Positions 1 to 61,119 of a stretch of 64,000 nt of DNA are shown one piece after another (within the stretch, counting starts at the first letter, position 1; each line of letters begins with the position of its first letter). The notes beneath the pieces were generated by a model. That model was not told the origin of the DNA. It ran no database searches and was given only the letters and a program-made list of their open reading frames with translations. Source of the stretch: Rhizophagus irregularis (lineage: Eukaryota; Glomeromycota; Glomeromycetes; Glomerales; Glomeraceae); assembly GCF_026210795.1 (NCBI RefSeq), contig NC_089444.1:2408501-2472500 (forward strand). The letters run 5' to 3'. The position numbers and the translations under genes are program-made.

Positions 1-3000
1 CTGAACTATGCAAATATTTTAAAGCAACTTTTTCATTTGAATATCTTGTATATTTATCTTTCAAATTATTATAATATATTGGACCATCCTTCCATATTGC
101 CGAATATACTGTTATCAAATCATTTTCACTTACTTTTTTAATTTCATTAAGTCGATTATAAGGTATCCATTCAAATATTATATTTGTGTTAAAATTTATT
201 TCTTGAATGAAATTATCAATTTTTTTATTTTCACTCACTGACATAAAATTATTTAAAACTAAAACATAATCATTTGTATTTGGATTTTGAGATATTCCAT
301 ATATATCAAAAATTTCTTTACTAAATTCATTTATTAAATATTTTTCAGCCTATATATAATATATGAGAAATTAATATAATGCATAAAAAAATTACAAAAA
401 ATATCTGTATAAATTATATACCTCATTTCTTACAATTTCAATAGTATTCTGTGAGCCATGCAAACATCTTAAAGCAACTTCTAAATTTGAATCTCTTGTA
501 TAATTTCTACAATTCTTATTACGATATAATGGACCATCCTTCCATATTGCTGAATATATTGAAATAAAACTACTTTTGTCTATTTCTTTAATTTCATTAA
601 GTTGATTGTATGGTATCCATTCAAATACTGTATTTTCATATGCACCCATCATTTTTATATGCATTTCTTGAATGAATTCATCAATTTTTTCATTTCCACT
701 TTCCCAGATATAATTATTTAGAACCAAAATATAATCATTTGTTTCTGGATTTTGAGATATTCCATATATAACAAAATCCCTTATACCAAAAGTACTTTTT
801 GAATATTCTACAACCTAAAATAGATGAAGAATTAATATATTTTAATAAAAAAGTATTAAAGAGATTATACAAATTTAATACCTTATTTATAACAAATTCA
901 ATAGTATTTTGTGAGTTATATAGATATTTTAAAGCAACTGCTTTATTTGAAACTCTTGAGTAATTACTATACTCTTTATCTTTATTATAATATAATGGAC
1001 CATCCTTCCATATTGCTGAATATATTGTTATAGAACCATTTTTACCTATCTCTTTAATTTCATTAAGCTGATTGTATGGTATCCATTCAAATAGATTATC
1101 TTTATATGATGATTCTTTCATTTTTAATTGCATTTTTTGAATGAAATCATCAATTTTTTTATATCCACTTTCCCAGATAAAATTGCTTAGAACAAAAATA
1201 TAATCATTTGTATCTGGATTTTGGGATATTCCATATATAATGTAAATATCTTTATAACCATAAGTATTTATTAAATATTTTTCAGCCTAAAATAAATAAT
1301 AAATTAATATTATAATAAAAAAAGTATTAAAGATATTATATAAATTATATACCTCACTTATTACAAAATCAATAGTACTATGTGAATTATGTAAACATTT
1401 TAAAACAACTTCCTTATTTGGATTTCTTCCATAATTACTATAAAGTAATGGACCATCCTTCCATATTGCTGAATATGCTGTTATAGAATCATTTTTGCCT
1501 ATCTCTTTAAATTCATAAATCTGGTTGTATGGTATCCATTCAAATAATACATTTGACTTATATAATGATTGCATTTTTTGAATAAAATTATCAATTTTTT
1601 TATTTCCATTTTCCCAGAAAAAATTGCTTAAAACCAAAATATAATCATTTGTATCTGGATTTTGAGATATTCCATATAAAACAAAAATACTTCCGTCATA
1701 AATATTTGTTAAATAATTCTCAGCCTAAAATAAATGAGAAATTAATAATATATTATAATAAAAAGTATTAAAGAAAGCATATAAATTTTATACCTTATTT
1801 ATTACAAAATCAATAGCACTTTGTGAGTTATGTAAATATTTAAAAGTAACTTCTTTATTCGGATTTCTTGTATAACTTGTAGAATAACTAACAAAATATT
1901 TATAATTATAACATAATGGACCATCCATCCAAATTGCTGAATATACTGTTATAGAACCATTTTTGCCTATCTCTTTAATTTCATCAAACTGATTGTATGG
2001 TATCCATTCAAATACTACATTTGGGTAATGTATAATTTTAAATTGCGTTTCTTGAATGAAATTATCAATTTTTTCACTTCCACTGATCCAATTTGTTATA
2101 TTTATGAAATTATTTTGAACTAAAATGTAGTTATTTGTAATTGTATTCTGAGATATTCCATATAGTATGTGAAATACTCTTGAATATTTTTTAGCCTATA
2201 AATAAGCAAAAGAAATAATGAATATACTAAGTTAGAAAAAAAATTATTTAAATATTAAAGAAATATTATACCTCATTCATTAGAAAATCAATGGAATATT
2301 GTAAGTGACAAAAACATTTTAAAGCAACTTTTTTATTTGAATCTCTTGTAAAACTATTATATTCATTATTATATTGCAATGGACCATCCTTCCATATTGC
2401 TGAATATACTGTTATAGAATCATTTTTGCATGTCTCTTTAATTTCATTAAACTGATTGTATGGTATCCATTCAAATACTGTATCAATATATTTATCCATT
2501 TTTAATTGCATTTCTTGAATAAAATTATCAATTTTTTCATTTATACTGATACAATTTGTTACGTTTATGGAATTATTTTGAACTAAAATATAATCATTTG
2601 TATCTGGATTCTGGGATATTCCATATAATTTGTGAAATCCCTCATTGTTTGTTAAATATTTATTAGCCTGAAATAAAATAAAGGCAAATGAACTAGTAAG
2701 TATATTAAATTTAAAAAAATACTTAGATTATTAAAATAATATTATACCTCAATTATTAGAAAATCAATGGAATATTGTGAATTACGTAAACATTTTAAAG
2801 CAATTTCCTTATTTGGATCTCTTGTATAATTATTATACATATAATTGTATTGTAATGGACCACCCTTCCAAATTGCTGAATATACTGTTATAGAATCATT
2901 TTCACCTGTCTTTTTAATTTTATTAAACTGATTGTATGGTATCCATTCTAATATTGCACTTGATAATTGCATTTCTTGAATGAAATTATCAATTTTTTCA

Positions 3001-3556
3001 TTTCCACTGATCCAATTTGTTATGTTAATGGAATTATTTTGAACTAAAATATAGTTATTTGTAGATGAATCCTGGGATATTCCATACAATATATGAAATG
3101 CCTTATTGTTTGTTGAATATTTTTTAGCCTGAAATATAGACAAATAACATGGTAAATATATCAAATTAAAAATACTTAATTATTAAGAAAGAAATATTAT
3201 ACCTCATTTATTAGAAAATCAATAGAATGTTGTAAGTTACAAAAATATTTTAAAGCAACTTCTTTATTTGGATTTCTTGTATAACTATTAGTATAGTCAT
3301 AATTACGATATAATGGACCATCCTTCCATATTGCTGAATATACTGTTATAGAACTATTGTTACCTGTTTCTTTAATTTCATTAAACTGATTATATGGTAT
3401 CCATTCAAATATAATATCACTATGATCATTTATTTTTGATTGCATTTCTTGAATGAAATCATCAATTTTTTCATTTCCACTGGTCCATTCTGTAAAATGG
3501 TTATCTAGACATTTCAGTATATTATTTTTTGTTACTGGTTTGTTTTCAGAAAACAT
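1..3556 (-). CDS. Kinase N-lobe-array gene, copy A (3' part outside window)
   Basis: Protein kinase-like gene whose 3' half runs off the left edge. Eight exons are visible: 3203-3556 (ATG at 3556), 2748-3128, 2272-2667, 1794-2195, 1353-1724, 882-1286, 422-814 and 1-349 (partial). Each internal exon is a multiple of three, starts after an AG, usually with GCT (Ala), ends with GAG or AAG, and is followed by a GTAT intron of about 70-105 bp. Each encodes a kinase hinge motif (YGISQ.P.TN.YILV), then a leader (SGNEKIDNFIQEMQ), EWIPYNQ, a degenerate glycine loop (GKNGSITVYSAIWKDGP) and the beta-3 lysine motif VALK. Exons match copies B and C one to one. The exon at 1794-2195 has Thr where the others have Met in QEMQ. 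A TTG-initiated extension to 3592 is rejected because B and C start at the same ATG. The catalytic C-lobe is not seen here, so whether this copy is intact is unknown. Confidence 0.75.
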
Positions 3557-4399: not shown

Positions 4400-4795
4400 T
4401 GTAACGTCCGAGATGACGTTAAACTAGAAAACATGGGATTTGTGAAAGAGGTTTTATTTAGGGGAAAAGACAAAGTTGTAAAAATACGAAATTAACAGAG
4501 GTGTAAAAAATGAGAAAGTGACAGAAATGGGAAAGTGACAGAAAAGTAAGAATATGAAAATGACAGGGGAGTTTTACCTTTTAGAAAGGGTCAATTATGA
4601 GATATAAAAAGGAGTGATTTTTGACTTAGTAAAAAGGAGGATACGAATTTTTGTGATTTATTTTTATTAGATATATTTAGTTATATTAAACCAAGCGTAT
4701 TATTGTATTTATTTATATTACTAATAAAGTATTATTTTGTTAAGACTAAGGTGGCAACGTGATTTATCACAGGCTTCACAGGCTTAGGTCTTACA
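4400..4795 (+). mobile_element. Possible solo LTR
   Basis: A 396-bp block starting TGTAACG and ending CTTACA, a 5-bp TGTAA/TTACA terminal inversion. Inside are a TATA-like box (GATATAAAAAGG, about 4602) and AATAAAG about 115 bases later, in LTR order. No target duplication was found, so this is tentative. Confidence 0.3.
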
Positions 4796-11610: not shown

Positions 11611-11867
11611 AAAAAAATTGTGTAACTGTAATGTTTAGATCATCTATATAAATAAATTCTGTGTACCCTTACGACTGTGACGTTAAACAAAAATTTAAAA
11701 AAGCAAGATTTATATGCCGATCATATAATCCGGCTAGCGTTATGTTAAAGTTACGCCTAATTTTTGAAGCATGTTACACATAATTAGCAAACATTAATTG
11801 TATGAATTGTGCGACAATATTGGAATCATTTCTCCGAAAATCTAACTTTTCACTTGCAATTGCAAAT

Positions 11868-13385
11868 ATGTCATGTTCAAAAATATTTTCAGGAGATTTA
11901 CCTGAATTAACATATGATGTTATAAAATATTTTCAGAAAGATTTTTCAACTTTATATTCATGTATTTTAGTAAACAGATTATGGTGTCGTTTAGCAATTC
12001 CATTATTATGGGAAGAACCATTTACGATTCATAGCAATAATCATAAAATTATTGAAATTTACTTGAATAATTTTAATGATGATTTTAAAATGAAATTATA
12101 TGAATATAAAATTATTAATAATTCATTACCTTCAAAGAATATGTTGCTGTTTGATTATCTCAAGTTTTTAAAATATTTGAATACACTTAATTTTTTTTTA
12201 TTTGTTGAAATATGGTTAAGTATTGCTATTGATAATTTAAAACCCGAAAATATATTATATGATTCTGAAAAAAATTTTAAGAGATTATTTCATATGTCAT
12301 TATTTAAAATTTTTATTGAAAATGAAGTAAATTTAAATACTCTTGAAATTGAGGCTTCAGGTAGTTATTGTGATACATATCTTGAAAATAATCTTGAGTT
12401 AATTTTACAAAATCAAAATTTTATTCAAAACATTAGAAATTTGAAACTTCATATCTACAAATATGAAAAAAATACGGTAATTTATAATCAATTATTGCAA
12501 ATAATTCATTCACATCAAAATCTTAAAAAAATTTTCTTATTTGACTTAAGTATCAATTATTTATCTTTTTATCAATCATTATTATTATCAAAAGATTATA
12601 ATTGTTCAAATACTTTAAATACAATCGTTTTATATCAAATTGAATTAAATTTAATGAACAATCTTGATAAAATATTTGAACAATTAAATGTTTTAGAATC
12701 TGTTCATATTATTTATTGTTCATTTTTGAATAGTAATTTTATTCAACAAATTATTAATTTAACTAAACCATTTAAATTAAAATCTTTAATTTTAAATGAT
12801 GTACCACAATTTGAATCATTACAACAATTATTACTAAAATCTGGTGATTATTTAGAAAATTTCGGCGGGGAATTTTATTATAATCATGATATATCACAAT
12901 TATTAAACTATTGTAATAATATCAATTTTCTTTATTTTACTGAATATGAAAATAAGAATTCTACTTATCAAAAAATCAATTTAATTGAAAATATTAAAAA
13001 AAGTCTCAATTATCTTTCAATCAAAACATATTCACCAATTACTAGTTCAATCATATTAAAAAATCTAGGACAAATTCTCCCTTCTAAATTAGATTACATA
13101 AGTTTGAATTTAAACATTGAAAAAAGGGATTTTAGATTATTCTTAGAAAATTCTCAATATAGTTTTATTAATAAATTGTTAATACTACAATGTGGTGATG
13201 ATGATATTTTACATTGCATAAAGGACTATTGTATTATGAGAGTCAAGTATTTAGCTATTAAGGATCATAAGAAAGAATTGTTTGATTTGAAAGACAAAGT
13301 GAGGGAATTGGAGTTACGTAATATTAAAGTTCAAAGACATATTGATTTAGATATTAATATTTGTAACTTTATGAAAGAATATTGA
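11868..13385 (+). CDS. F-box protein with a degenerate leucine-rich C-terminus
   Basis: Single-exon gene, 505 aa from the chosen ATG. The N-terminal F-box (residues about 5-50) includes SKIFSGDLPELTYDVI and CILVNRLWCRLAIPLLW, the signature of the large F-box family of Rhizophagus. It would bind Skp1 in an SCF ubiquitin ligase. The remaining about 450 residues are Leu/Ile/Asn-rich with irregular repeats (NLKKIFLFDLS, KLKSLILNDVP-like), consistent with degenerate LRRs for substrate binding. The ATG at 11868 is preferred to an in-frame one at 11802, because family members start MxCSKxFSGDLPEL. The gene is inside a Tc1/mariner-bounded segment and just downstream of a decayed F-box copy. Substrate unknown. 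Confidence 0.85.
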   Translation: MSCSKIFSGDLPELTYDVIKYFQKDFSTLYSCILVNRLWCRLAIPLLWEEPFTIHSNNHKIIEIYLNNFNDDFKMKLYEYKIINNSLPSKNMLLFDYLKFLKYLNTLNFFLFVEIWLSIAIDNLKPENILYDSEKNFKRLFHMSLFKIFIENEVNLNTLEIEASGSYCDTYLENNLELILQNQNFIQNIRNLKLHIYKYEKNTVIYNQLLQIIHSHQNLKKIFLFDLSINYLSFYQSLLLSKDYNCSNTLNTIVLYQIELNLMNNLDKIFEQLNVLESVHIIYCSFLNSNFIQQIINLTKPFKLKSLILNDVPQFESLQQLLLKSGDYLENFGGEFYYNHDISQLLNYCNNINFLYFTEYENKNSTYQKINLIENIKKSLNYLSIKTYSPITSSIILKNLGQILPSKLDYISLNLNIEKRDFRLFLENSQYSFINKLLILQCGDDDILHCIKDYCIMRVKYLAIKDHKKELFDLKDKVRELELRNIKVQRHIDLDINICNFMKEY

Positions 13386-22943: not shown

Positions 22944-25143
22944 TCACATATTATTATTATTATTATTATTAAACATTTCACCTACTCCAACTAAATTGCC
23001 GTTTCTTTTCAAAAAAATTAAAGCTTCAAATAAATCCGCCTTCATACTTGTCCTTTTTGAGGACATTATCAATCCAGCATCGCTAAAGACCCTTTCGCTT
23101 ACCCTGATGTTGCTTGGATAGATAAATACTTTCATGCCAATTGTGCTAAGACCGGAAATTGACTCTTATTTACGTCCCACCATTTTAAAGGATCTTGATC
23201 GTTTTTGATTTGTGCTATTACTAAATATCGTTCAACTTCATTATCTTCAGTCTGAAGATCATGAGATTCATCATCTGAGAACAAGCTTCTTTTATAAACT
23301 CATGTTGAAGTTTTTCTTTTTTTTGGTTTTGGCTCACATTCCTCTAGTTGAATATTAGTATTCTTTGCTAATTCATAAATTTCGTGAAGATTAGCTTTTG
23401 CTAATACCTTTTGTTCATTGTTTGCAAATGCTGTTTTTTTTTTACGTGGATCTAAAAGTGCCGCAATAAGTGCTTCCTTTTCAATTACCTCAAAATAATT
23501 TTCAAGTGCCTTATAAAGATTTGATTTAATACCATCCAAAAGCCCGAAGGTATTAGTAGGAGTATTTATTTTGATTTTTCATCTGGCATCGGGTTCATCA
23601 TCTTCATCAACTTCTTCAAATTAATGGTTTTCAAACGCATCATCATTTGTTTCCAAATCTAAATTAGAGTTTATTGTTAGACTAAACATAGTTTTGAGTT
23701 TAATGATACCTGGATATATATAACTCATTGTAGCATATTTTGTCCCTTCCAATCTTTCTGTTAACTTAGCAAAGGGACCTAAAATTTCAAGCAAATCTCT
23801 TATAATTTCCTATTCATCATTAGTAAGGTTAACTTTATTTAACCTTTTCACGTCCTCTTTAGCATTATTGTCTTTGCATGCATTTAATGATGAAATAACA
23901 ATATCAATATAAGGTTTTAAAGCAATTAACCTTTCCCATGCTATATATGTACTTGACCAACATTTTTCAACATCAGTTATTGCCCTATAAAAAATTCCAT
24001 GTAAATCACTCCCTTCTTCAACATCATCTGAAATTTTTTTTTGCACATTTAAAAGACGCTCATTTTGCTTTGGTGAAGTAAAAAAATTAATTAATCTTTT
24101 TGCACGTGCAATTAGAATTTCAGCAGTAAGTAATCCCTTCCTAACTACCAATTGGATTGTGTGTGCAGTGCATGATAATCTATGTAACTAAACTATTTGA
24201 TTAAGACACTTTTTCATGTTAGATGCGTTATCTGTAGTACAAAAAAAAACCTTATTTTGCAATTCCCATTGAGTAATAATTTTCTCTAATGCATGTTGAA
24301 TAGCTTCTCCGGTATGTGGATAGGACATATATTGAATAGCTAAAGTAATTTCTCTCATTTCAAAATCAGGTGTAATAAAGTGACATATAACTCCAAGAAA
24401 GCCCTGCTTACTACGTGAAGTCCAAAGGTCACAAGTAAGTGAAACTGAAGCTGCATTTTCATGGATATACTGCTTAAGCTTATTTTTTGAAAATTCATAC
24501 GCTTCAAATATTCTTTTTCGAAATTCTTTATCACTTGGAAGTTCAAAATTTTCACTTAAAGCATTAATAAATCGACGAAAAGAAGGAGATTTTAAAAGGT
24601 AAAAAGGTTGAAAATCCAGAATGAGCCATTCAAAAAGAAGAGTTTCCAAATATTTTTGCCGATCTGGTGTCATTTGTGGATGTGAATCTGATGAAATAGT
24701 ATAACGATCAATTTTTACTTGTTTTAAAGATGGTGTAATAGTTGCTGAAGGTTTAGAATGTTCATAAATTTTGTGTTTTCGATTAAGGTGGCTAATAATA
24801 TTACCAGTAGGACTGGAAGTTTCAATTTTTGAAGTACAGTTTTCACCGTTATCTAATTTTTGATTACATTCAAAAATAAATTTATTTGGATTTGATGGAT
24901 GATTTTTTTGCTCACCCAATTATATACCCAACTGCGAAGTTTTGATCCTCCCTTATTTTTAGCTTGAAAATCTAAATCATGTTCTTCTTTATTAAGAAGT
25001 TTATCAAACGCATTTTTTGTATATTTTTCTATATTAGTATTATCTAAAGGTGATGTTACGGGTGTATGATTTTCTATATCAATTATATCAATATAGTTAT
25101 CTTCAGATTGTACATGTGTTTCTAAAGTTCTTTCAGTTGACAT
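22944..25143 (-). pseudogene. hAT transposase, broken
   Basis: Starts at ATG 25143 (MSTERTLETHVQ). After a frameshift at about 24910 a BED-type zinc finger follows (FECNQKL...NCTSKI...HLNRKH), then the RNase H-like core with Asp in LTCDLWTS and Asp in CTTDNASNM. An in-frame TAG at 24188-24190 follows NQIV; the frame continues through CTAHTIQLVV, WSSTYIAWERLIALKP and LLDPRKK, with further breaks at about 23810, 23620 and 23300. It ends in the hAT dimerisation region (RVSERVFSDAGLIMSSKR). Domain order and content are those of a full hAT transposase. The start is 315 bases from the right end of the element. Confidence 0.85.
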
Positions 25144-34060: not shown

Positions 34061-34939
34061 CTAAATTTTGCAATCTAAGCATTCAGAGATATATTCATCA
34101 TCATTATACATTGGAAGATCCTTTGTAAAAGGGTTAAGTAATCGAGATATATAAATAGCCTGTAGATGAGTAGCTGCTTGATAATCTTTAATGGATGATG
34201 GATTTGCATTTGCTTTTCTGTATTCCTCTGCTTCCTTAAATTGTATTTCAATTTCTTCATTTTCTACTATGAAAATATCCCCTCCATAAGACTTATGAAA
34301 TGATAAAATTGATTCATTTATTTCAATAATACTTGGTCTATTGTTAGGATTTGAATCTAAGCACCTTTTCATCAAATCAATATAACATTTTGGTGCTTCT
34401 GGCTCATTTAATTCAGGTCTATTTCCATTACAAATATCTAATGCAAGAAATTTATCATGTGCACGATTGTAAAAAGGTTGTCTTCCAGTTGCAATAAAAT
34501 ACATTATCATACCAAAACTATAGATATCTGCTGCTTGAGTAAAGGCCTTTCCTCTTAATACTTCAGGAGCTACATAAGGCATAACTCCATAAATATTTTT
34601 TTCGTCTACATTACCAACTTCTCCACATAATCCCATATCTGAAATTAATATAAAATTACTAAAATCATCTATACTACTTAAAAATAATATATTTCCAGAA
34701 TGAAAATCACGATGAACTATTTGTTTTTGATGGATTTCAGTAAGACCATTAATAATCTTACGTAATACAGACACTTTATTTTGCCAGATGAAATATTCAT
34801 AATTTTCATTCATCCAATTATTAAAATTTCCATCCTTTGCATAATCAAGAACCAAAATAAAATCTTCTGTATCCGGATTTTGAGATATTCCATATATATT
34901 AGTGATATTACTTCCCTTAGTTATTGAATATTCTTTAGC
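34061..34939 (-). other. Kinase C-lobe exon of copy B
   Basis: Terminal exon, 293 codons including the stop. It begins after a TAG acceptor with AKEYSIT and carries beta-4/5 and the hinge (YGISQNPDTEDF), helix D (GNFNNWMNENYE), the catalytic loop HRDFHSGN, the metal motif DMG, VAPEVLRG, the helix-F Asp (ADIYSFGMIMY), a family C-lobe signature (CYIDLMKRC, NNRPS) and a charged tail ending DCKI. Phe-to-Met in DFG is tolerated in some kinases of this family, so activity is plausible. The matching exon of copy C is nearly identical, far closer than the N-lobe exons are to one another. Confidence 0.85.
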
Positions 34940-37900
34940 CTATTAAAATAAATTGATTAAAATAAAAGATAATATATTACTTACTAAATTAAATTCAAAA
35001 AAAAATTCATTGCAAATAATTTTTCAAAAAATTTCATACCTCATTTAAAAATTTGTTGTTAATATTTTGTGAATTATGTAAACATTTTAAGGCAATTACT
35101 TTATTTGGATCATTCCTTTTATATGTTTTTTCATCAGCAACATATTCTAATGGACCATCTTTCCAATTTGCAGAATATACTATAGCAAAACCACCTTTAC
35201 CTATTTCGTTAATATTATTAAACTGATTGTATGGTATCCATTCAAATACTATATCTTCATAGCTATCTATCTTTAATTGCATTTCTTGAATAAAATCATC
35301 AATTTTTTCATTTCCACTGATCCAATTTGCTAAATTTAAGTAATTATTCTTGATTAAAATATAATCATTTGTATTTGGATTTTGAGATATTCCATACAAT
35401 AACATAAATGCTCCATTTTTTGTTAAATATTTTTTAGCCTGAAATATAAATAAAAAAGATCATCATAGTTAATTTATTAAATTAAAAAGCATTTAAAAAT
35501 ATTTAAGAAAAACGTTATACCTCTTTTATTAGGGATTCAACGGAATTCTGTGTGTTTTGTAAATATTTTAAAGAGACTTCTTTGTTTGGATCCCTTGTAT
35601 AATCAATGCTATTTTGGTCATCATAATATAATGGACCATCCTTCCATATTGCTGAATATATTGAAATAGAAGTATTTTTGCCAATTTCATTAATTTCATT
35701 AAGTTGATCGTATGGTACCCATTCAAATACTGAATCTTTATATGTACTCATTTTTAATTGCATTTCTTTAATGAAATCATCAATATTTTCATTTCCACTT
35801 GCCCATGCAATAACTAAAATATAATCATTAGTATTCAAATTTTGAGATATTCCGTATATGTCACAAATTACTCTTTCAAATTTTGTTGCTAAATATTTTT
35901 CAGCCTAGTAATATATCATAAATAAAGAAATTAATTTAGTATTTTATTAAAAAATAATAAATAATTGTAAAAAATTATACCTCATTTTTTAGGAAATCAA
36001 TGGAGTTCTCTGAACTATGCAAATATTTTAAAGCAACTTTTTCATTTGAATACCTTGTATATTTATCTTTCAAATTATTATAATATATTGGACCATCCTT
36101 CCATATTGCCGAATATACTGTTATCAAATCATTTTCACTTACTTTTTTAATTTCATTAAGTCGATTATAAGGTATCCATTCAAATATCATATTTGTATTA
36201 TAATTTATTTCTTGAATGAAATTATCAATTTTTTTATTTTCGCTCACTGACATAAAATTATTTAAAACTAAAATATAATCATTTGTATTTAGATTTTGAG
36301 ATATTCCATATATATCAAATATTTCTTTACTAAATTTATTTATTAAATATTTTTCAGCCTATATAATATATGAGAAATTAATATAATGCATAAAAAAATT
36401 ACTAAAAATATCTGTATAAATTATATACCTCATTTCTTACAATTTCAATAGTATTTTGTGAACCATGCAAACATCTTAAAGCAACTTCTAAATTTGAATC
36501 TCTTGTATAATTTCTACAATCTTTATTATAATATAATGGACCATCCTTCCATATTGCTGAATATATTGAAATAGAACTACTTTTATCTATTACTTCAATT
36601 TCATTAAGTTGATTGTATGGTATCCATTCAAATACTGTATTTTCATTTATATCTATTCTTAATGATTGCATTTCATAAATAAGATCATCAATTTTTTCAT
36701 TTCCACTTTCCCAGATATAATTGTTTAGAACCAAAATATAATCATTTGTATCTGGATTTTGGGATATTCCATATATAACAGAAATATCTTCATAACCATA
36801 AGAATATTCTTCAGCCTTAAATAGATGAGGAATTAATATATTATAATTAAAAAGTATTTAAAGAGATTATATAAATTTATATATACCTTGTTAATTACAA
36901 ATTCAATAGTATTTTGTGAGTCATGTAAAGATTTTAAAGCAACTTTTTTATTTATTAATGAATCTCTTATAAAATTTTTATGATCATAATTATAATATAA
37001 TGGACCATCCTTCCATATTGCTGAATATACTGTTATAGATTCATTTTTACCTGTTTCTTCAATTTCATTGAGCTGATTGTATGGTATCCATTCAAATAAA
37101 TAAGTTTTATATAATTTCATTTCTAATTGCATTTTTTTAATGAAATCATCAATTTTTTTATTTCCACTTTCCCAGATAATATTGCTTAAAACAAAAATAT
37201 AATCATTTGTATCTGGATTTTGGGATATTCCATATATAATATAAATATCTTCATATTTATAAGAATATTTATTAGCCTAAATTAATAAGAAATTAATATT
37301 ATAGTAAAAAGTATTAAAGATATTATATAATTATATACCTCATTCATTACAAATTCAATAGTACTATGTGAATTATGTAAATATTTTAAAACAACTTTCT
37401 TATTTGGATCTCTTTCATAATTACTATAAAGTAGTGGACCATCCTTCCATATTGCTGAATATACTGTTATAGAACCATTTTTGCCTGTCTCTTTAATTTC
37501 ATAAATCTGATTGTATGGTATCCATTCAAATATTACATTTGGTGTATAAAATGATTGCATTTCTTGAATAAAATTATCAATTTCTTTGTTTCCATTTTCC
37601 CAGAAAAAATTGCTTAGAACCAAAATATAATCATTTGTATCTGGATTTTGGGATATTCCATATATAGTGAAAATAGCTTTATTACAAATATTTGCTAGGT
37701 ATTTTTCAACCTAAAATAAATGAAAATTAATATATTATAATAAAAAGTATTGAAGAAATCACATAAATTTTATACCTTATTTATTACAAAATCAATAGTA
37801 TTTTTTGAGTTATGTAGATATTTTAAAGCAATTTTTTTATTTGGAGCTCTTATATAATTACAATAATCTCTACTATAATATAATGGACCATCCTTCCATA

Positions 37901-39512
37901 TTGCTGAATATACTGTTATAGATCCATTTTTGCCTGTCTCTTTAATTCCATTAAACTGATTGTATGATATCCATTCAAATACTACATTTAGGTAATTCTT
38001 ATTTTTAAATTGCATTTCTTGAATGAAAGTATCAATTTTTTCATTTCTACTGATCCAATTTGTTATGTTTATGGAATTATTTTGAACTAAAATATAGTCA
38101 TTTGTAACTGGATTCTGGGATATTCCATATAATATATGAAATGCCTTATTTTTTGTTGAATATTTTTTAGCCTGAAAATAAACAAAAGAAATAATGAATA
38201 TACTAAATTAGAAAAAAAAATAGTTATACATTAAAGAAGTAATATACCTCTTTTATTAGAAAGTCAATGGAATATTGAAAGTTACAAAAACATTTTAAAG
38301 CAACTTCCTTATTTGGATCTCTTACGCATTTACTATAATTATATTGCAATGGACCATCCTTCCATATTGCTGAATATACTGTTATAGAACCATTTTTGCA
38401 TGTTTCTTTAATTTCATTAAACTTATTATATGGTATCCATTCGATTATACTAATACCATCAGTATCAATTTTTAATTGCATTTCTTGAATGAAATCATCA
38501 ATTTTTTCATTTCCACTGATCCAATTTGTTATGTTTATGGAATTGTTTTGAACTAAAATATAGTTATTTGTAATTGAATCCTGAGATATTCCAAACAACT
38601 TATGAAATTCACCTTTGTTTGTTAAATATTTTTTAGCCTGAAATAAAGAAAAATGAAATAATAAATATGTAAATTAAAAAATATTTAGATTATTAAAGAA
38701 ATCTACCTCATTTATTAGAAAATCAATGGAATATTGTGAGTTACATAAACATTTTAAAGCAACTTTTTTATTTGAATTTCTTGTATATTCTTCCTTCAAA
38801 TAATCATAATATAATGGACCATCCATCCATATTGCTGAATTTACTGTAATGGAACCATTTATGCCTGTCTCTTTGATTTCGTTAAACTGATTGTATGGTA
38901 TCCATTCGAATTTAATACCTGATAATTGCATTTCTTGAATGAAATTATCAATTTTTTCATTTTTACTGATACAATTTGTTACGTTAATGGAATTATTTTG
39001 AATTAAAATATAGTTATCTGTAACTGGATCCTGGGATATTCCGTACAATATATGAAATGCCTTATTTTTTGTTGAATATTTTTTAGCCTGAAATATAGAC
39101 AAATGACATGGTAAATATATCAAATTAAAAATTTAATTATTAATAAGAAATATTATACCTCATTTATTAGAAAATCAATAGAATATTGTAAGGTACAAAA
39201 ATATTTTAAAGCAACTTCTTCATTTGGATTTCTTGTATAACTATTAGTATAGTTATAATTATAATATAATGGACCATCCATCCATATTGCTGAATATACT
39301 GTTATAGAACTATTTTTGCATGTTTCTTTAATTTTATTAAACTGATTGTATGGTATCCATTCGATTATAATGTCTTCATGGTGATTTATTTTTAGTTGCA
39401 TTTCCTGAATGAAATTATCAATTTTATCATTTCCGCTGGACCAATTTATAAAGTCAGTTTCTAAACATTTCTGAATATTATCTTTTGTTACAGGTATGTT
39501 TGGAGAAAACAT
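34061..39512 (-). CDS. Kinase with ten tandem N-lobes and one C-lobe, copy B
   Basis: Complete gene reconstructed as 11 phase-0 exons: 39159-39512 (ATG), 38707-39087, 38248-38637, 37776-38171, 37339-37710, 36887-37276, 36429-36815, 35981-36358, 35521-35904, 35040-35438 and 34061-34939 (stop TAG). The total is 4710 coding bases, 1569 aa. Exons 1-10 each carry leader SGNEKIDDFIQEMQ, EWIPYNQ, a glycine-loop region, W(K/M)DGP and VALK or a close variant, ending at the helix-C Glu. The next exon supplies strands beta-4/5 (YGISQNP.TNDYILV). Only module 10 (residues about 1145-1277) has a canonical loop (GKGGFAIVYSA). The last exon holds IVHRDFHSGN (HRD about residue 1353), ISDMGLCGEV (DMG for DFG, about 1378) and the APE segment (YVAPEVLRG). 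Likely a cytosolic Ser/Thr or tyrosine-kinase-like enzyme of the expanded Rhizophagus family; the extra N-lobes are unexplained. An annotation pipeline could split it into many small genes. Confidence 0.8.
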
Positions 39513-45912: not shown

Positions 45913-46797
45913 TTAAATTTTGCAATCTAAACATTCAGAGTTATAATCATCATCATCATCATTATATTTTGGAAGGTCCTTTGTAAAAGGGTTAAGTAAT
46001 CGAGATATATAAATAGCCTGTGGATGAGTAGCTGCTTGATAATCTTTAATGGATGAAGGATTTGCATTTGCTTTTCTGTATTCCTCTGCTTCCTTAAATT
46101 GTATTTCAATTTCTTCATTTTCTACTATAAAAATATCCCCTCCATAAGATTTATAAAATGATAAAATTAATTCATTCATTTCAATAATACTTGGTCTATT
46201 GTTAGGATTTGAATCCCAACACCTTTTCATTAAATCAATATAACATTTTGGTGCTTCTGGCTCATTTAATTCAGGTCTATTTCCATTACAAATATCTAAT
46301 GCAAGAAATTTATCATGTGCACGATTGTAAAAAGGTTGTCTTCCAGTTGCAATAAAATACATTATCATACCAAAACTATAGATATCTGCTGCTTGAGTAA
46401 AGGCTTTTCCTCTTAGTACTTCAGGAGCTACATAAGGCATAACTCCATAAATATTTTTTTCATCTACATTACCAACTTCTCCACATAATCCCATATCCGA
46501 AATTAATATACAATTGCTAAAATCATCTATACTACTTAAAAATAATATATTTCCAGAATGAAAATCACGATGAACTATTTGTTTTTGATGGATTTCTGTA
46601 AGACCATTAATAATCTTACGTAATACAGACACTTTATTTTGCCAGATGAAATATTCATAATTTTCATTCATCCAATTATTAAAATTTCCATCCTTTGCAT
46701 AACCAAGAACCAAAATATAATCTTCTGTATCCGGATTTTGAGATATTCCATATATATTAGTGATATTACTTCCCTTAGTCATTGAATATTCTTTAGC
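45913..46797 (-). other. Kinase C-lobe exon of copy C
   Basis: Terminal exon of copy C, 295 codons including the stop. It has the same motif order as copy B: hinge, IVHRDFHSGN, ISDMGLCGEV, YVAPEVLRG, ADIYSFGMIMYF, RCWDSNPNNRPS. Copy C keeps the family-typical Trp in RCWDSNP, where copy B has Leu. The aspartate run near the C-terminus comes from a short ATC (tri-nucleotide) expansion at about 45945-45962. Confidence 0.85.
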
Positions 46798-49700
46798 CTA
46801 TTAAAATAAATTGATTGAAATAAAAGATAATATATTACTTACTAAATTAAATTCATCATTACAAATAATTTTTCAAAAAATTTCGTACCTCATTTAAAAA
46901 TTTGTTGGTAATATTTTGTGAATTATGTAAACATTTTAAGGCAATTACTTTATTTGGATCATTCCTTTTATATGTTTTTTCATCAGCAACATATTCTAAT
47001 GGACCATCTTTCCAATTTGCAGAATATACTATAGCAAAACCACCTTTACCTATTTCGTTGATATTATTAAACTGATTGTATGGTATCCATTCAAATACTA
47101 TATCTTCATAGCTACCTATCTTTAATTGCATTTCTTGAATGAAATCATCAATTTTTTCATTCCTACTAATCCAATTTGCTATATTTAAGTAATTATTCTT
47201 GATTAAAATATAATCATTTGTATTTGGATTTTGAGATATTCCATACAATAACATAAATGCTCCATTTTTTGTTAAATATTTTTTAGCCTGAAATATAAAT
47301 AAAAAAGATAATCATAGTTAATTTATTAAATTAAAAAAGTATTTAAAATATTTAAGAAAAACGGTATACCTCTTTTATTAGGGATTCAACGGAATTCTGT
47401 GTGTTTTGTAAATATTTTAAAGAAACTTCTTTGCTTGGATCCCTTGTATAATCATTACTATTTTGGTCATCATAATACAATGGACCATCCTTCCATATTG
47501 CAGAATATATTGAAATAGAACTATTTTTGCCAATTTCTTTAATTTCATTAAGTTGATCATATGGTATCCATTCAATTACTGTATCTTCATATGTATTCAT
47601 TTCTCGAATGAAATCATCAATTTTTTCATTTCCACTTGCCCATGTAAGAACTAAAATATAATTATTTGTATTTAAATCTTGAGATATTCCATATATATCA
47701 CAAGTTACTAAATATTTTTTAGCCTAGTAATATATAATAAATAAAAGAAATTAATATATTTATTAAAAATTAATACAAATAATTGTGGAAATTTATACCT
47801 CATTTATTAGGAAATCAATAGGGTCTTCTGAAATAAACAAATATTTTAAAGCAACTTTTTCATTTGAATCTCTTGTATATTCTTCTTTCAAATAATCATA
47901 ATACAATGGACCATCCTTCCAAGTTGCTGAATATACTGTTATACAACCATTTTTACTTATTTCTTTAATTTCATTAAGTCGATTGTAAGGTATCCATTCA
48001 AATATTAAATTCGTTTGATCTGAAAAATGCATTTCTTGAATGAAATTATCAATTTTTTCATTTCCACTTACTAATATGAAATTATTTAAAACTAAAACAT
48101 AATCATTTGTATTTGGATTTTGAGATATTCCATATATATCAAAAATTTTTTTACTAAATTCATCTCTTAAATATTTTTTAACCTACAATAGATAAGAGAT
48201 TAATATAATGCATTAAAAAAGTAAAAGGAATATTTATATAAATATTATACCTCATTTCTTACAATTCTAATAGTATTTTGTGAGTTATGCAAACATCTTA
48301 AAGCAACTTCTAAATTTGAATCTCTTGTATAATTTCTACAATCTTTATTATAATATAATGGACCATCCTTCCATATTGCTGAATATATTGAAATAGAACT
48401 ACTTTTATCTATTACTTCAATTTCATTAAGTTGATTGTATGGTATCCATTCAAATACTGTATTTTCATTTATATCTATTCTTAATGATTGCATTTCATAA
48501 ATAAGATCATCAATTTTTTCATTTCCACTTTCCCAGATATAATTGTTTAGAACCAAAATATAATCATTTGTATCTGGATTTTGGGTCATTCCATATATAA
48601 CACTAGAAATATCTTCATAACCATAAGAATATTTTTTAGCCTTAAATAGATGAGGAATTAATATATTATAATTAAAAAGTATTTAAAGAGATTATATAAA
48701 TTTATATATACCTTGTTAATTACAAATTCAATAGTATTTTGTGAGTCATGTAAAGATTTTAAAGCAACTTTTTTATTTATTAATGAATTTCTTATAAAAT
48801 TTTTATGATCATAATTATAATATAATGGACCATCCTTCCATATTGCTGAATATACTGTTATAGATTCATTTTTACCCGTTTCTTCAATTTCATTGAGCTG
48901 ATTGTATGGTATCCATTCAAATAAATAAGTTTTATATAATTTCATTTTTAATTGCATTTTTTTAATGAAATCGTCAATTTTTTTATTTCCATTTTTCCAG
49001 ATAAAATTGCTTAAAACAAAAATATAATCATTTGTATCTGGATTTTGGGATATTCCATATATAATGTAAATATCTTTATAATCATCATAAGTATTTATTA
49101 AATATTTTTCAACCTAAAATAAATAAGAAATTAATATTATAACAAAAAATTATTAAAGATATTATATAAATTATATACCTCACTTATTACAAATTCAATA
49201 TTATTATGTGAATTATGTAAATATTCTAAAACAACTTCCTTATTTGGATCTCTTGCATAATTACTATAAAGTAGTGGACCATCCTTCCATATTGCTGAAT
49301 ATACTGTTATAGAACCATTTTTGCCTATCTCTTTAATTTCATAAATCTGACTGTATGGTATCCATTCAAATATTACATCTCTTTTATAAAATGATTGCAT
49401 TTCTTGAATGAAATTATCAATTTTTTCATTTTCATTTTCCCAGAAAAAATTGCTTAAAACCAAGATATAATCATTTGTATCTGGATTTTGGGATATTCCA
49501 TATATAGTAAAAATTCCTTTATTACAAATATTTTCTAGATATTTTTTAACCTAAAATAAATGAAAATTAATATAATAAGAAAGTATTGAAAAAATTATAA
49601 AATTTTATACCTTATTTATTACAAAATCAATATTATTTTTTGAGTTATGTAAATATTTTAAAGCAACTTCCTTATTTGGATCTCTTGCATAATTATAATG

Positions 49701-51348
49701 CTTATAATTATAAAGTAATGGGCCATCCTTCCATATTGCTGAATATACTGTTATAGAACCATATTTGCTAATCTCTTGAATTTCATTAAACTGATTGTAT
49801 GATATCCATTCAAATATTGCATCTGAGTGACGCTTATTTTTAAATTGCATTTCTTGAATGAAAGTATCAATTTTTTCATTTCTACTGATCCAATTTGTTA
49901 TATTTATGAAATTATTTTGAACTAAAATATAGTCTTTTGTAACTGGATTCTGAGATATTCCATATAATATGTGAAATCTATAACTGACTGTTAAATATTT
50001 TTTAGCCTGAAAATAACAAAAGAAATAATGAATATTCTAAATTAGAAAAAAATATTTATTCATTAAAGAAGTAATATACCTCTTTTATTAGAAAGTCAAC
50101 GGAATATTGCAAGTTACAAAAGGATTTTAAAGCAACTTCTTTATTTGGATCTCTTGCATAATTATCATACATATATTGCAATGGACCATCCTTCCATATT
50201 GCTGAATATACCATTATAGAACTAATTTTACCTGTCTCTTTAATTTCATTAAACTGATTGTATGGTATCCATTCAAATATTGCATTTGAATTATAATGTT
50301 CAATTTTTAATTGCATTTCTTGAATGAAATCATCAATTTTTTCATTCCCACTGATCCAATTTGTTATGTTTATGTAATTATTTTGAACTAAAATATAGTT
50401 ATTTGTAATTGAATCCTGAGATATTCCAAATAATTTATGACATCCCCTATTGTTTGTCAAATATTTTTTAGCCTGAAATAAAGAAAAATGAAATAGTAAA
50501 TATACAGTATATATTAAAGCATTTATATTATTAAAAAAAACTACCTCATTTATTGGAAAATCAATGGAATATTGTGAGTTACATAAACATTTTAAAGCAA
50601 CTTTTTCATTTGAATATCTTGTGTATTCTTCTTTCAAATTATCATAATATAGTGGACCATCCATCCATATTGCTGAATATACTGTAATGGAACTATTTTT
50701 TCCTGTCTCTTTAATTTCATTAAACTGATTGTATGGTATCCATTCAAATTTAATACCTGATAATTGCATTTCTTGAATGAAATTATCAATTTTTTCATTT
50801 CTACTAATCCATTTTGTTATGTTAATGGAATTATTTTGAATTAAAATATAGTTATTTGTAACTGGATCCTGGGATATTCCGTACAATATATGAAATGCCT
50901 CATTTTTTGTTGAATATTTTTTAGCCTGAAATATAAATAAATGAATAGTAAATAATTGAATCAAAATACTTAAATTATTAAAGGAATATTATACCTCATT
51001 TATTAGAAAATCAATAGAATATTGTAAGTTACATAAATATTTTAAAGCAACTTCTTTATTTGGATTTCTTGTATAACTATTAGTATAGTTATAATTATAA
51101 TATAATGGACCATCCATCCATATTGCTGAATATACTGTTATAGAACTATTTTTGCATGTTTCTTTAATTTTATTAAACTGATTGTATGGTATCCATTCGA
51201 TTATAATGTCATCATAGCGATTTATTTTTAGTTGCATTTCCTGAATGAAATTATCAATTTTTTCATTTCCACTGGTCCAATTTATAAAGTCAGTTTCTAA
51301 ACATTTCTGAATATTATCTTTTGTTACAAGTATGTTTGGAGAAAACAT
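45913..51348 (-). CDS. Kinase with ten tandem N-lobes and one C-lobe, copy C
   Basis: Paralogue of copy B with the same 11-exon layout: 50995-51348 (ATG), 50545-50925, 50080-50472, 49611-50006, 49179-49550, 48712-49113, 48251-48640, 47799-48182, 47370-47723, 46889-47287 and 45913-46797 (stop TAA). It totals 4710 bases, like copy B, though five individual exon lengths differ. Modules keep the leader, EWIPY, the degenerate loop, WKDGP and VALK; in the 47370 exon the lysine motif reads VSLK. The tenth module (exon 46889-47287) again has GKGGFAIVYSA. The last exon has HRD (about residue 1351), DMG and VAPEVLRG, and a longer acidic stretch (YNDDDDDYN) near its end. The intron at 50473-50544 is 72 bases with no stop in frame, so a retained form would stay in frame. 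No disabling change was found, so it is likely expressed if its promoter works. Confidence 0.8.
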
Positions 51349-54486: not shown

Positions 54487-57400
54487 CTAATCATGGCACA
54501 TCTCCCATTTATCAATCAAAGACTGACCCTCTTCCTGTTCAAATATAATAGGTAAAAAAGATCTTATTGCATTTTCCCCATCCAATTCATTCTCACCAAA
54601 GGTGCTCCAATATCTATCTAATGGCCAAGGGCGTGCATAAAGTACTTTAGATAGTCGTTCATTAATTTCATCATCAAATTCAAACGCTTCAACGCCTCGA
54701 ATATACATAATTTTTGCTTCTTCTCCAGGAAATTTTGATCGTGTATATATAAAATCTACGCTTATCAGTTCTGATGTTGCTTTTTCTGGGGTTTCTCCCT
54801 TTTGAAAATCGGTATAGATACCTAGAATCTTATAATCTTCGTGCGATTTACCAAAAACACTTACTGGATTTATTAATAGGAAATTGTCTGCCGATTTATA
54901 GGTTGATTGTTTTGCATTCTTGTTTTGAATTGATATGACGCCATAACCAGAAGAGTATTTAAAGGGAATGACATGATCGATATTTTCGAACCCAAATGGC
55001 ATCTTGATGGCAGCATGGCGGTGATAAGCTTCTATGACAAGATCCTCCATTAGGAATTTATTCCCTCCAGATTTCACACAATCCATATTGGTAGCCAGCA
55101 AAGATATCCAATGATTAAATCCAACTTCTGCATCATTTATTTCCAATTCGTCAAGAAGCACATCATGGCCATTCATTTTTTCTAAAAATGATCTTAAGGG
55201 AACTTTCTCCAAATATGTAACTTCTGGTCCAAACATTTACATCTCCATATCTCATCGAAAATAGGATGCGATTGACAAGTTCTCTTCTTTCTCCCACTTC
55301 TACTACCCCACGATTGAGCAGTTCCACCAATGTGTCCAAGCAGTTTTTCCAACCAACATTAATGATTCCTTTTAGAGCTCCAGATGCAAGGATAGCATCA
55401 GAAGGATATGTGCAAAGAATACTTGTACGATCAGGTGAAATCCCTATAGCAGTAGCCATATGGGATGCTATCAGATCGTCTACTTCTGCAATTCGAGGAG
55501 GAACTTCAAGAGCCAGGGTGCAAGATATACATGCAAAGTTAGCAATATAATCATCCTTCTTATTGCTAAAGTTGCGGATCTTGCACAAAGCTAGTTGAAT
55601 AAGTTCATCGACTCCAACTCCGGCTTTAGCAAGAGAGCCCCAAAGGGGAGTTCCTAGATATGCAACCCTTTCAAGATCGTAATTTTTATCAAAGTTTTCT
55701 TTACCAACGTTTTCAGCAAGTAATGCTAACACGTCCGTGGTACTGACATCTAAATACGCAGGAAATATTTTGAAATTAGTTGTTCTGGCAGAGACGGTAT
55801 CTATTATCGTTGGAGGAAGGAAATTGTCAATCTTCCTATTTGTGCTGAGAAGAATATTAAAGAATCCTATCCATGGAATATGCCGAATTTGTTGTCTCCA
55901 TAGAACAAAGTAGGTATCACCATCCTTTCTCCGCGTAATCAATTCATGTGCCTCGTCAATACAACAAACTACAGGGATATCTATTCCGGGAAATAATTTC
56001 TTAACAAATTCTTGGTTATTGTATTTTGGTAGAGAAGATTCACTTTTCACTAACGATCTCAAAACAGTATTCCAGAATTCTTCACATTCGCGATCACCGC
56101 TAATTTGAATATTCCAAAACTGCTCTGTATTCCATCCTTTGTCTTTAATTTTTTCGATTGCGCCACACAAAAGAGCCCTAAATTTATTATCCCGAATTGT
56201 ATCCAGAACTTGTTGAGCATAAGGTGTTGATTTGGGGTATCCAGAACTATACTCACTACGTTTGCAGATGTACAAGACATAGATCCCCTTGGTTCTCAAT
56301 TCCGCCACAAGCCGCGTTTTACCGGAACCGGAGCTTTGTGTGATTGCTAAATAAGGGGCGTACCTTCCATCTGACAACCAAGTTTCATGAAATTGATTTA
56401 GCCGAGCGTAAAAGCCTTCCAGAACAGTGCCCTGGTATTCAGTTTGGAATGCTTTTTTAATTCTTTCCCATTCATAATCATCTGTAAAAAAATAATAATA
56501 TATACAGTGTAATGAGAAAAAAAATAATGATTTATAAACGCAGAACACCTAACAGTTTGTTTAAAACAATTGATTACCTTCTTCGAGCTTCACCTTTTTG
56601 TTTGGAAAGTCTAAAAAAGAAGAAAGTGCGCAAGTAAATAAAATGTCAGAATTGTATTTAGATTTTGAAATATTCGAATCCAGCCATGGTACACATACCA
56701 ATAATTATAATAACATCTAATTCCATATTATATAGATTATCAATAGAAATAGTGGGATCCAAGGTTTTCATTTCATTTCTTTTGCGAAGGGAGAACATCC
56801 CATGGGAATATTTTCTGAGGGTATTAAACCTATCTTTGATTAATTCTTTTAGATCATCTAGATAATGAATTCCATTTTCTTCCAGTTCTTCTCGCTCAAA
56901 TAAGACTGTACCATAATGATCATAACGAACCAACATTCTCTTATCTTTTTTAGTTAGATAGAATGTGATTAAAGAGTATTAAGACATTTCGTAATAAAAT
57001 TCGTATATGGGCCAAAACAATTGATTACCTTCTTCGAAATTCACCTTTTTGTTTGGGTTTGGAAAGTCTAAAAAAGGAGAAAGTGCCAAAAAAAGTCAAT
57101 AGACAATTTAAATAAGAAGTAACGGAAAGATGGGGACTACGAAGATATGAAAAAGAATATAATACAGCGCAGAATTGGCAGGAAGCACATTATTTTATAA
57201 CAATGAAAAAATTGAATAAATGTATTTTTTTCAACAGTTAATTTCTTGTTCGAGAGGTAAAACATTGAGAGGCACTTACCGTTACCAGCGATATCATAGA
57301 TGGCGATGATTTGGATATTTCTTATGTTTTCCTTTATAAAATTTTGATCATTAAGTTCATTTTCAAAATATTTTTCAACCAGTTTAAGAGGATCCATTTC

Positions 57401-60205: not shown

Positions 60206-61119
60206 AAAAAAAATAGTAAGTATTATTTATAAACAACTTGATTCACTAGTAATAGAAAATTATTGTAATCAATCATAAAATTTCTTTAATTATGGTATAT
60301 AATTATATAATAATAAAATAAATATATTATTATATTTACGCCTAATATATTAGTAATTGAATAAAAAAATTTTCGATATTAAATTATTAATAAGAGGTTT
60401 TTACTTCAAATCACCGGGGGTGATCATCACCGTTGGCCAGAATTATCAATTTTTACCGGCACTATATTTTTTAATGCTGGTCGATTATAATAATTTCAGT
60501 CACCGGTGATCATCACCCCCGGTTATAGTTAAAACAAGAATCCAAAGAACATTAAAAAATTTAACCTACCTTCACAATAAATTTCATCAATTAATTAGTC
60601 AAATAAATATATACTGCAAAGCAGTAATATTGTACTGAGTTGTGAAAAATATTATCACATTGCTAATTTTCTTTTTCAAAGAATCATATTTATTCGCTGT
60701 TCGCCGGCAGCACGTGTCTTACTGGCGTAGTAAATTTCTGTGTTTATCACGATACGGATATAAAACTTACCAAATGGAGGATTTGGTATTAATTCCGACT
60801 TTTGACTATTTTTGTTAAACAACAACTTTTTTTTTTTTAAAAAAAGAAAAATACTTTCTGTTATAGGCAATGGCGCAATTTTTGTTTATTTATTCACGTT
60901 ATTGTGTAACATTACTTGTGTCATTTGGTCAAGTTTGTGGCTGTATGAATATCTAAATTGGCAAATTGATCGGATTTCGGATTTCGGTATCCTTTTAAGT
61001 AGTTTTATTTCTTTTATTTCTTTTTTTTTGTTGGAAAAAATTTTAAAAATATTTTTAAGTTTCATTTATAAAAAATTATTTTAAGTCATTTTATTATTAT
61101 TATTTTTTTTGAATAAAGA
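60206..61119. other. Intergenic, with MITE and an ORF lacking ATG
   Basis: Besides the MITE at 60413-60523, an ORF at 60812-61084 predicts two hydrophobic stretches (FVYLFTLLCNITCVIWSSLW) but opens at TTG and has no family match. Confidence 0.35.
60413..60523. mobile_element. Tiny MITE with perfect 20-bp inverted repeats (111 bp)
   Basis: ACCGGGGGTGATCATCACCG at 60413-60432 and its exact reverse complement at 60504-60523. The arms are GC-rich in an AT-rich background and contain an internal TGATCA palindrome. No clear target duplication. Confidence 0.7.

Follow-up and report, generated by a model that had tools for sequence, protein, structure and literature searches.

A window of 64,000 nucleotides from Rhizophagus irregularis, by which we mean the whole stretch of DNA that was analyzed, carries on its minus strand ten tandem N-lobe modules (exons 1 to 10) followed by a single C-lobe exon (exon 11). 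We tentatively interpret this locus as one gene encoding a single TKL-like kinase, formed by exons 10 and 11, with nine tandem pseudo-N-lobes upstream; taken jointly with the origin and binding role proposed below, this interpretation has in our judgment somewhat less than an even chance of being right.

Gene model of the array

The gene model, derived from the DNA letters, consists of 11 phase-0 exons running from 39512 to 34061 on the minus strand (C16:2442561-2448012 in genome coordinates; Table 1). From exon 1 to exon 11 their lengths are 354, 381, 390, 396, 372, 390, 387, 378, 384, 399, and 879 nt, each divisible by 3, and the ten introns between them measure 62 to 100 nt, all with GT-AG boundaries. 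The predicted product has 1,569 amino acids, and its sole stop codon is terminal. The αC position closes each of exons 1 to 10, with Glu in eight of them and Lys in exons 4 and 6, while the β4/β5 stretch ([Y/F]GISQ) lies near the start of exons 2 to 11, so that the hinge strands of each lobe are supplied by the following exon. In these respects, i.e., coordinates, strand, ten N-lobe modules in phase 0, a single C-lobe, borrowed hinge strands, and frame-neutral cassettes, the gene model agrees with the original prediction. The repeat unit of 193 nt occurs in ten copies spaced 434 to 481 nt apart; together with the same layout elsewhere in the genome, this places the arrangement far beyond chance.

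Table 1. Predicted features of the target array and its neighbors (window coordinates)
Feature	Positions	Strand	Basis or remark
Exon 1: Met start, leader, pseudo-N-lobe 1 (β1-β3, αC)	39159..39512	-	Glycine-loop region TCKNSSIT
Exon 2: lobe 1 β4-β5, leader, pseudo-N-lobe 2	38707..39087	-	Gene model
Exon 3: pseudo-N-lobe module	38248..38637	-	Gene model
Exon 4: pseudo-N-lobe module, final residue Lys replacing αC Glu	37776..38171	-	Gene model
Exon 5: pseudo-N-lobe module	37339..37710	-	Gene model
Exon 6: pseudo-N-lobe module, final residue Lys	36887..37276	-	Gene model
Exon 7: pseudo-N-lobe module, β3 = VALR	36429..36815	-	Gene model
Exon 8: pseudo-N-lobe module	35981..36358	-	Gene model
Exon 9: pseudo-N-lobe module, glycine-loop region GKNTSISI	35521..35904	-	Gene model
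Exon 10: canonical, terminal N-lobe	35040..35438	-	Gene model and lobe comparison
GKGGFAIV, terminal-lobe glycine loop, unique in type within the gene	35178..35201	-	Exon 10 translation, by hand
Exon 11: β4-β5, hinge, C-lobe (HRDFHSGN, SDMG, APEV), stop	34061..34939	-	Gene model, Pfam
Neighboring array 1, running off the window edge; exon 1 at ~3556-3203	1..3556	-	
Neighboring array 3: ten N-lobe modules and one C-lobe exon (45913-46797)	45913..51348	-	

Terminal kinase unit and upstream lobes

Exons 10 and 11 together matched the Pfam family PK_Tyr_Ser-Thr (PF07714) at 3.2e-39 and 135.2 bits, against a cut-off of 23.1, and contain all of the kinase motifs (GKGGFA, β3 ALK, αC NE, HRD, DMG, and APE), with Met in place of Phe in the DxG motif. 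By profile and motifs, this unit is a predicted eukaryotic protein kinase. Its best matches among solved structures were MLK1/MAP3K9 and TAK1/MAP3K7, which it resembles in a domain-wide alignment of the terminal N-lobe plus C-lobe (E 4e-22). Both of these kinases belong to the TKL group, and neither is known to have tandem N-lobes.

The upstream modules are, by sequence comparison, homologous to the kinase N-lobe. Three spliced upstream lobes were 56 to 60% identical to the terminal lobe from leader to β5. A Pfam search of a two-module piece (exons 6 and 7) returned no kinase match, a profile of 13 internal lobes reached a best E of 0.11, to a non-kinase, among PDB sequences, and one of 13 internal-lobe members scanned with Pfam hit a kinase family at E 0.029. 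Because upstream lobes retain 56 to 60% identity to the terminal lobe, we read these misses as divergence. Two AlphaFold models were examined, one of a 282-amino-acid translation of two modules in which a 72-nt intron was left unspliced and one of a single exon; their mean pLDDT values were the pair 44 and 61, and in the two-module model the alignment rows other than the query covered the first half only, as in a similar alignment. Neither low-pLDDT model had a Foldseek match among PDB chains at E ≤ 0.001. The upstream exons (118 to 132 amino acids) contain N-lobe elements only, with no C-lobe in between, and as predicted they fall outside the definition of a pseudokinase, a two-lobed fold with lost catalytic motifs. 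Scans of IMG/VR and GTDB with the module alignment gave 30 and 16 pattern matches, respectively, none of which tblastn confirmed.

Recurrence in the genome

In the same genome, 23 arrays with 6 to 36 module matches each were read, and a single C-lobe exon closes 22 of them within the stretch read. Eight of nine further kinase loci have two or three N-lobes with the canonical loop in the last only. The array architecture is common in this genome but not universal: in the stretches fetched, the C2 plus-strand locus L026 consists of a lone N-lobe match and a C-lobe match. Left out of these counts were module matches below 45 bits, C-lobe matches below 100 bits, module matches overlapping a C-lobe, and two C-lobe chains carrying at most one module (a single N-lobe match in C2 plus strand, none in C10 upstream). 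Array 3 in the window is closely paralogous to the target. Array 1 has its terminal lobe and C-lobe outside the window (C16, about 2406.5 to 2407.9 kb).

Stop-free frames with usable splice sites were found in 279 of the 293 module matches, a total that counts twice some modules split by stops or frameshifts (seen in C2, C16_2534501, and C28), making the counts of those arrays slightly high. Five of the 14 unclean matches belong to the C2 array; among the 14, one is cut by the stretch end and another is a first exon read past its Met, and these two are not breaks. The 14 unclean matches would suit a collection of several separate genes or pseudogene fragments, an explanation that we consider highly improbable for the target, as its internal exons are preceded by AG and followed by GT, the Met leader occurs in exon 1 only, and 251 of 258 measured introns are 50 to 110 nt long. 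One full-length transcript would be expected instead.

Two classes of N-lobes

Across the arrays, the kinase glycine loop (GGF) was present in 22/22 lobes adjacent to a C-lobe and in 0/257 others (Fisher 4e-33). With the glycine loop masked, 21 of the 22 terminal lobes formed an exclusive clade (support 0.89), and the non-terminal lobes share a derived loop motif, GKNG[L/S]IT, across arrays on several contigs. The terminal lobe is, by these comparisons, a lineage separate from the internal lobes. Of the 22 array C-lobes, 21 have the catalytic-loop Asp (16 HRD and 5 HHD/HCD, with C2 as the miss), all have SDMG, and 15 match the stricter pattern H.D.H.GN.

These data bear on how the modules might be used. 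Since the modeled exons are in phase 0, any skip would preserve the frame, and the array could be envisaged as mutually exclusive cassettes in which one N-lobe exon plus the C-lobe per transcript yields alternative kinases. We find this very unlikely: each alternative in such a set would be expected to retain the functional residues, whereas none of the 257 non-terminal lobes has a catalytic glycine loop, so that swapped isoforms would be without one, and the terminal lobe is a lineage of its own. One-exon-at-a-time splicing for catalysis is disfavored, as are decoys equal to the terminal lobe. The original prediction had suggested that the extra lobes could compete for the C-lobe; competition on equal terms is not supported, given that the glycine loop and the clade are restricted to terminal lobes. 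Among the roles that it had suggested, a scaffold or regulatory partner fits better than a decoy completing an active kinase, since the internal lobes appear to be a specialized pseudo-lobe repeat; they might conceivably act as decoys that bind without catalysis. The non-equivalence of the ten lobes and the frequency of the architecture in the genome had both been overlooked.

Divergence and selection

Between arrays 2 and 3 and between arrays 2 and 1, divergence was 0.079 and 0.102 in the internal exons, 0.020 and 0.018 in the terminal lobe, and 0.031 and 0.035 in the C-lobe, respectively; over three array pairs, the internal lobes outpaced both the terminal lobe and the C-lobe by a factor of 2.5 to 6. 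This rate bears on intramolecular autoregulation, in which the pseudo-lobes would dock on the terminal kinase and copy number would set its inhibition or activation, with N-lobe pairing in RAF and pseudokinase docking in JAK as precedents. Of 238 internal lobes, 178 have both the β3 Lys and the αC Glu, suggesting a retained N-lobe core, and the distinct lineage of the terminal lobe also favors such docking; against it stand the faster divergence of the internal lobes than of the surfaces supposedly contacted and the range of 6 to 36 module matches per array. We regard autoregulation as possible, albeit unlikely.

The divergence of internal exons was about equal to that of introns. Pooled exons changed faster than introns between arrays 2 and 1 (p 0.002), more slowly between arrays 2 and 3 (p 0.047), and no differently between arrays 3 and 1 (p 0.26); the notion that introns clearly lag behind internal exons, based on single introns, was dropped after the pooled comparison gave these mixed directions. 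Relaxed constraint or gene conversion could likewise account for intron-like divergence of internal exons. Selection counts for 228 internal modules gave an overall ω of about 0.59, with p < 0.01 for conservation in 52 of 130 columns, and no column was significant for positive selection after multiple testing (six at p < 0.01 uncorrected). Frames are mostly open despite the fast change; in a simulation, 10% random substitution placed stops in 89% of modules.

Neutral tandem-exon expansion by unequal exchange, leaving an array whose only requirement is to do the kinase no harm, would agree with the overall ω, the intron-like divergence, the broken state of some modules, and the finding that 136 of 238 internal modules have their nearest relative in their own array, for 53 of them the direct neighbor. 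The conserved columns, the single derived loop motif on several contigs, and the 279 open matches argue against such a by-product, and we hold it to be quite unlikely.

Possible origin, role, and relation to known systems

We infer that fusion at a phase-0 exon brought the hinge of one kinase N-lobe up against the leader of the lobe that follows, with no C-lobe included, and that the hybrid hinge-leader exon would then have been multiplied via unequal exchange. The pseudo-lobes, if folded, would constitute a multivalent, rapidly diversifying binding array, its ligands being most likely partner proteins or signals of non-self or host origin, that could hold and switch the single active kinase at its end. 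A competent kinase with a specialized, fast-evolving pseudo-N-lobe array of this kind is the reading toward which we lean, with confidence just short of even. Broader and rather doubtful is the proposal that in arbuscular mycorrhizal (AM) fungi the N-lobe became a recognition repeat, that large, rapidly diversifying pseudo-N-lobe arrays of variable copy number, each tied to one active kinase, form a receptor-like repertoire for partners or non-self, and that much of the huge kinome of the species is so built.

The original prediction had called the architecture unfamiliar, and tandem N-lobes ahead of one kinase were likewise not found described in the literature searched. According to passages of three papers, R. 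irregularis has 2,533 kinases (PMC10234402, which also describes Nanopore RNA-Seq), protein tyrosine kinase PF07714 is the most frequent motif among its expanded genes (PMC6123716), and its high-copy signaling genes, including kinases, are over-represented beside MULEs (PMC8647823). Those passages make no mention of tandem N-lobes; the expanded kinases they describe share the Pfam family of the target's terminal unit, unlike the upstream lobes tested here, which Pfam does not recognize. If many kinases of this root symbiont carry pseudo-N-lobe arrays that profiles miss, the kinome is mis-described, the N-lobe would serve additionally as an independent repeat, and the arrays would become a concrete candidate mechanism for partner sensing by the fungus.

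In JAKs and plant tandem kinase proteins, a degenerate kinase module lies on the N-terminal side of an active kinase, an order that the target shares. Those systems have at least two two-lobed kinase or pseudokinase domains per chain, whereas the target has a single C-lobe and the degenerate unit of the arrays is an N-lobe only, repeated about 5 to 35 times. Pseudokinase expansions across life, fungi included, were reportedly described by Kwon et al. in 2019. In fungal NLR-type receptors, high-identity repeat arrays that vary in copy number and change fast adjoin a conserved effector domain; the arrays described here share this arrangement, but their repeat is a kinase N-lobe exon.

Anatomy of a predicted tandem N-lobe gene

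The target gene (array 2) is predicted to comprise 11 exons on the minus strand, with the C-lobe in exon 11 alone, at the coordinates of the original prediction. Each of exons 1-10 encodes a leader, an EWIPY-type strand, a glycine-loop region, beta-3 and alphaC, bearing out the count of ten N-lobes, and the beta4-beta5 strands ([Y/F]GISQ) open exons 2-11, so that hinge strands do come from the following exon as proposed. The alphaC Glu position ends exons 1-10, with Lys instead in exons 4 and 6. All 11 exon lengths are multiples of 3, in agreement with frame-neutral cassettes; in the predicted gene model, the 10 GT-AG introns measure 62-100 nt and the product is 1,569 aa.

Pfam matched a kinase to exons 10-11 (3.2e-39), with no kinase match in the spliced piece of exons 6-7. 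When 13 upstream lobes, spliced and drawn from several arrays, were compared with the Pfam kinase family, one scored E 0.029, and a profile of the 13 had no significant match among PDB chains. Because the three spliced upstream lobes compared were 56-60% identical to the spliced terminal lobe (the N-lobe adjoining the C-lobe), the upstream lobes are considered homologous to a kinase N-lobe. Kinase expansion in Rhizophagus irregularis is already known from earlier reports (PMC10234402, PMC6123716, PMC8647823); among the matches listed from open-licence full-text literature, we found no paper on tandem kinase N-lobes and no description of a tandem N-lobe array architecture.

Array 3 is a close paralogue of array 2, located ~11.8 kb from it on the same strand, and the pair represents a local duplication. 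The exon 2/3 intron of array 3 (72 nt) has no in-frame stop, and its retention would therefore preserve the reading frame.

Coordinates of arrays and other features (window positions unless a contig is named)
Feature	Position	Strand	Content
Array 1	1-3556	-	cut by window edge
Array 2 (target)	39512-34061	-	exons 1-11
Array 3	45913-51348	-	
Array 3, exon 2/3 intron	50473-50544	-	72 nt
Open frame a	24188-24919		
Open frame b	54487-56548		
Open frame c	11784-13385		
Open frame d	61117-62625		
23rd array, beyond stretch	C16:3498363		terminal-type lobe match
23rd array, beyond stretch	C16:3498673		C-lobe match
Largest array (L029+L027+L028)	C20:1704501-1726500		36 module matches, 35 clean
L031	C10:1168001-1176000		C-lobe upstream of array
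L026	C2:775001-781000 (4435-5685)	+	one N-lobe match, then C-lobe match
L043	C6:180001-182100		C-lobe, 409-aa frame

Recurrence across the genome

The architecture recurs in the genome. With a 70-aa module as the query, 150 scored matches were obtained out of 3,538 first-look candidates, in 56 clusters (at least two matches in 33; 35 on C16). When 26 stretches picked from these matches were searched with a profile of nine target modules, 23 arrays were found, including the three in the window, with 6-36 module matches each; 279 of the 293 matches were clean, i.e., stop-free with usable splice sites. A single C-lobe exon closes 22 of the 23, some such exons being cut by the stretch end, and the 23rd exits its stretch, with terminal-type lobe and C-lobe matches just beyond. 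These counts exclude a C-lobe match without a module match on C10 and the lone N-lobe plus C-lobe of L026, a kinase-like gene without an array. Measured introns were 50-110 nt in 251/258 cases (median 72).

The largest array found, on C20, has one C-lobe downstream and a predicted product of roughly 4,900 aa, reckoned at 128 aa per module; in its L027 part, 378-nt and 396-nt exons partly alternate, which hints that two modules may make up the unit of repetition. At L031, the upstream kinase C-lobe shares an open frame with the array's first N-lobe exon, an arrangement that may capture a stage in the fusion of a C-lobe to an N-lobe.

Two classes of lobe

The lobes fall into two classes. In an alignment of 282 modules, for which first exons were cut back as far as their last stop, GGF, from the kinase glycine loop (GKGGFAIV in the target), occupied columns 80-82 in 22/22 terminal lobes and 0/257 others (260 aligned, 257 with a residue there; Fisher 4e-33). 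Internal lobes, first-exon lobes being counted apart, had Asn at column 80 in 210/238 and the common consensus GKNG[L/S]ITVYSAIWKDGP. In a tree with loop columns masked (271/282 modules), 21 of the 22 terminal lobes formed a clade of 21 (support 0.89), and first-exon lobes did not cluster (best pure clade 3/21). Beta-3 Lys was present in 22/22 terminal and 221/238 internal lobes, and Lys was accompanied by the alphaC Glu in 178/238 internal lobes. Array C-lobes retained the catalytic-loop Asp in 21/22, SDMG in 22/22 and APE in 19/22 (SPE on C7, one cut, none seen on C20). Swapping of N-lobe exons as cassettes for catalysis is disfavored because the GGF loop is confined to terminal lobes.

Ten further small loci were chosen from terminal-lobe or C-lobe matches, not as a random sample of the kinome; one, L041, lies inside an array counted already and was left out. 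Eight of the remaining nine have 2-3 N-lobes with GGF in the last only (the L044 C-lobe is known from its search match alone). None of 12 upstream lobes carried GGF, one in L040 being nearly canonical (GKGDFATV). In L043, no N-lobe was found in the 2.1 kb read; an unrelated 409-aa open frame that looks like a retroelement protein occupies the place expected for N-lobes, upstream of the C-lobe.

The modules of small loci L035-L040, L042 and L044 include a second type, in which a Cys-rich, zinc-ribbon-like segment separates the hinge from the leader (open frames ~115-188 aa). This type also forms the last lobe in three arrays (C20, C16:3360001 and C16:3561501) and the second-last lobe in the two of these on C16. 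In some modules the hinge leads into a Cys-rich leader, which we take to be the usual N-terminus of this fungus's kinases; such modules suggest that the hinge of one N-lobe may have been fused to the leader of the next.

Selection, turnover and a predicted binding role

A parsimony count over 228/238 internal modules, which ignores recombination and base bias, gave an overall omega of 0.59, with 52/130 columns conserved at p<0.01 (29 after Bonferroni) and excess change at uncorrected p<0.01 in columns 6, 10, 13, 35, 77 and 82; no column of the 130 was significant for positive selection after correction. For arrays 2 versus 3 and 2 versus 1, omega was 0.58 and 0.62 in pooled modules 1-10, and 0.19 and 0.49 in exon 11; exons 1 and 7 exceeded 1 in 2 versus 3, each resting on one synonymous change. 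Nucleotide differences (2 versus 3, 2 versus 1, 3 versus 1) were 0.079, 0.102 and 0.121 in internal exons, 0.104, 0.063 and 0.137 in introns, 0.020, 0.018 and 0.033 in the terminal lobe, and 0.031, 0.035 and 0.036 in the C-lobe. The rate of change in internal lobes is therefore close to that of introns, but most of their frames are open. At the sequence level this fits fast evolution with a kept core; relaxed constraint combined with gene conversion would look similar. The nearest relative lay within the same array for 136/238 internal modules (a direct neighbour for 53, a module three positions away for 26), including 33/33 on C20, and in another array for 24/24 in the window's three arrays.

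Recognition proteins show fast-changing repeats adjoining a slow output domain, and because the arrays share this arrangement, we favor the prediction that they form a multivalent binding array on a single active kinase, in which the upstream pseudo-lobes would be folded and would together serve in binding. The main rival is that the array autoregulates the kinase.

The other long open frames in the window (a-d) look like a putative zinc-finger transposase, a putative P-loop protein and two putative proteins of the F-box type.
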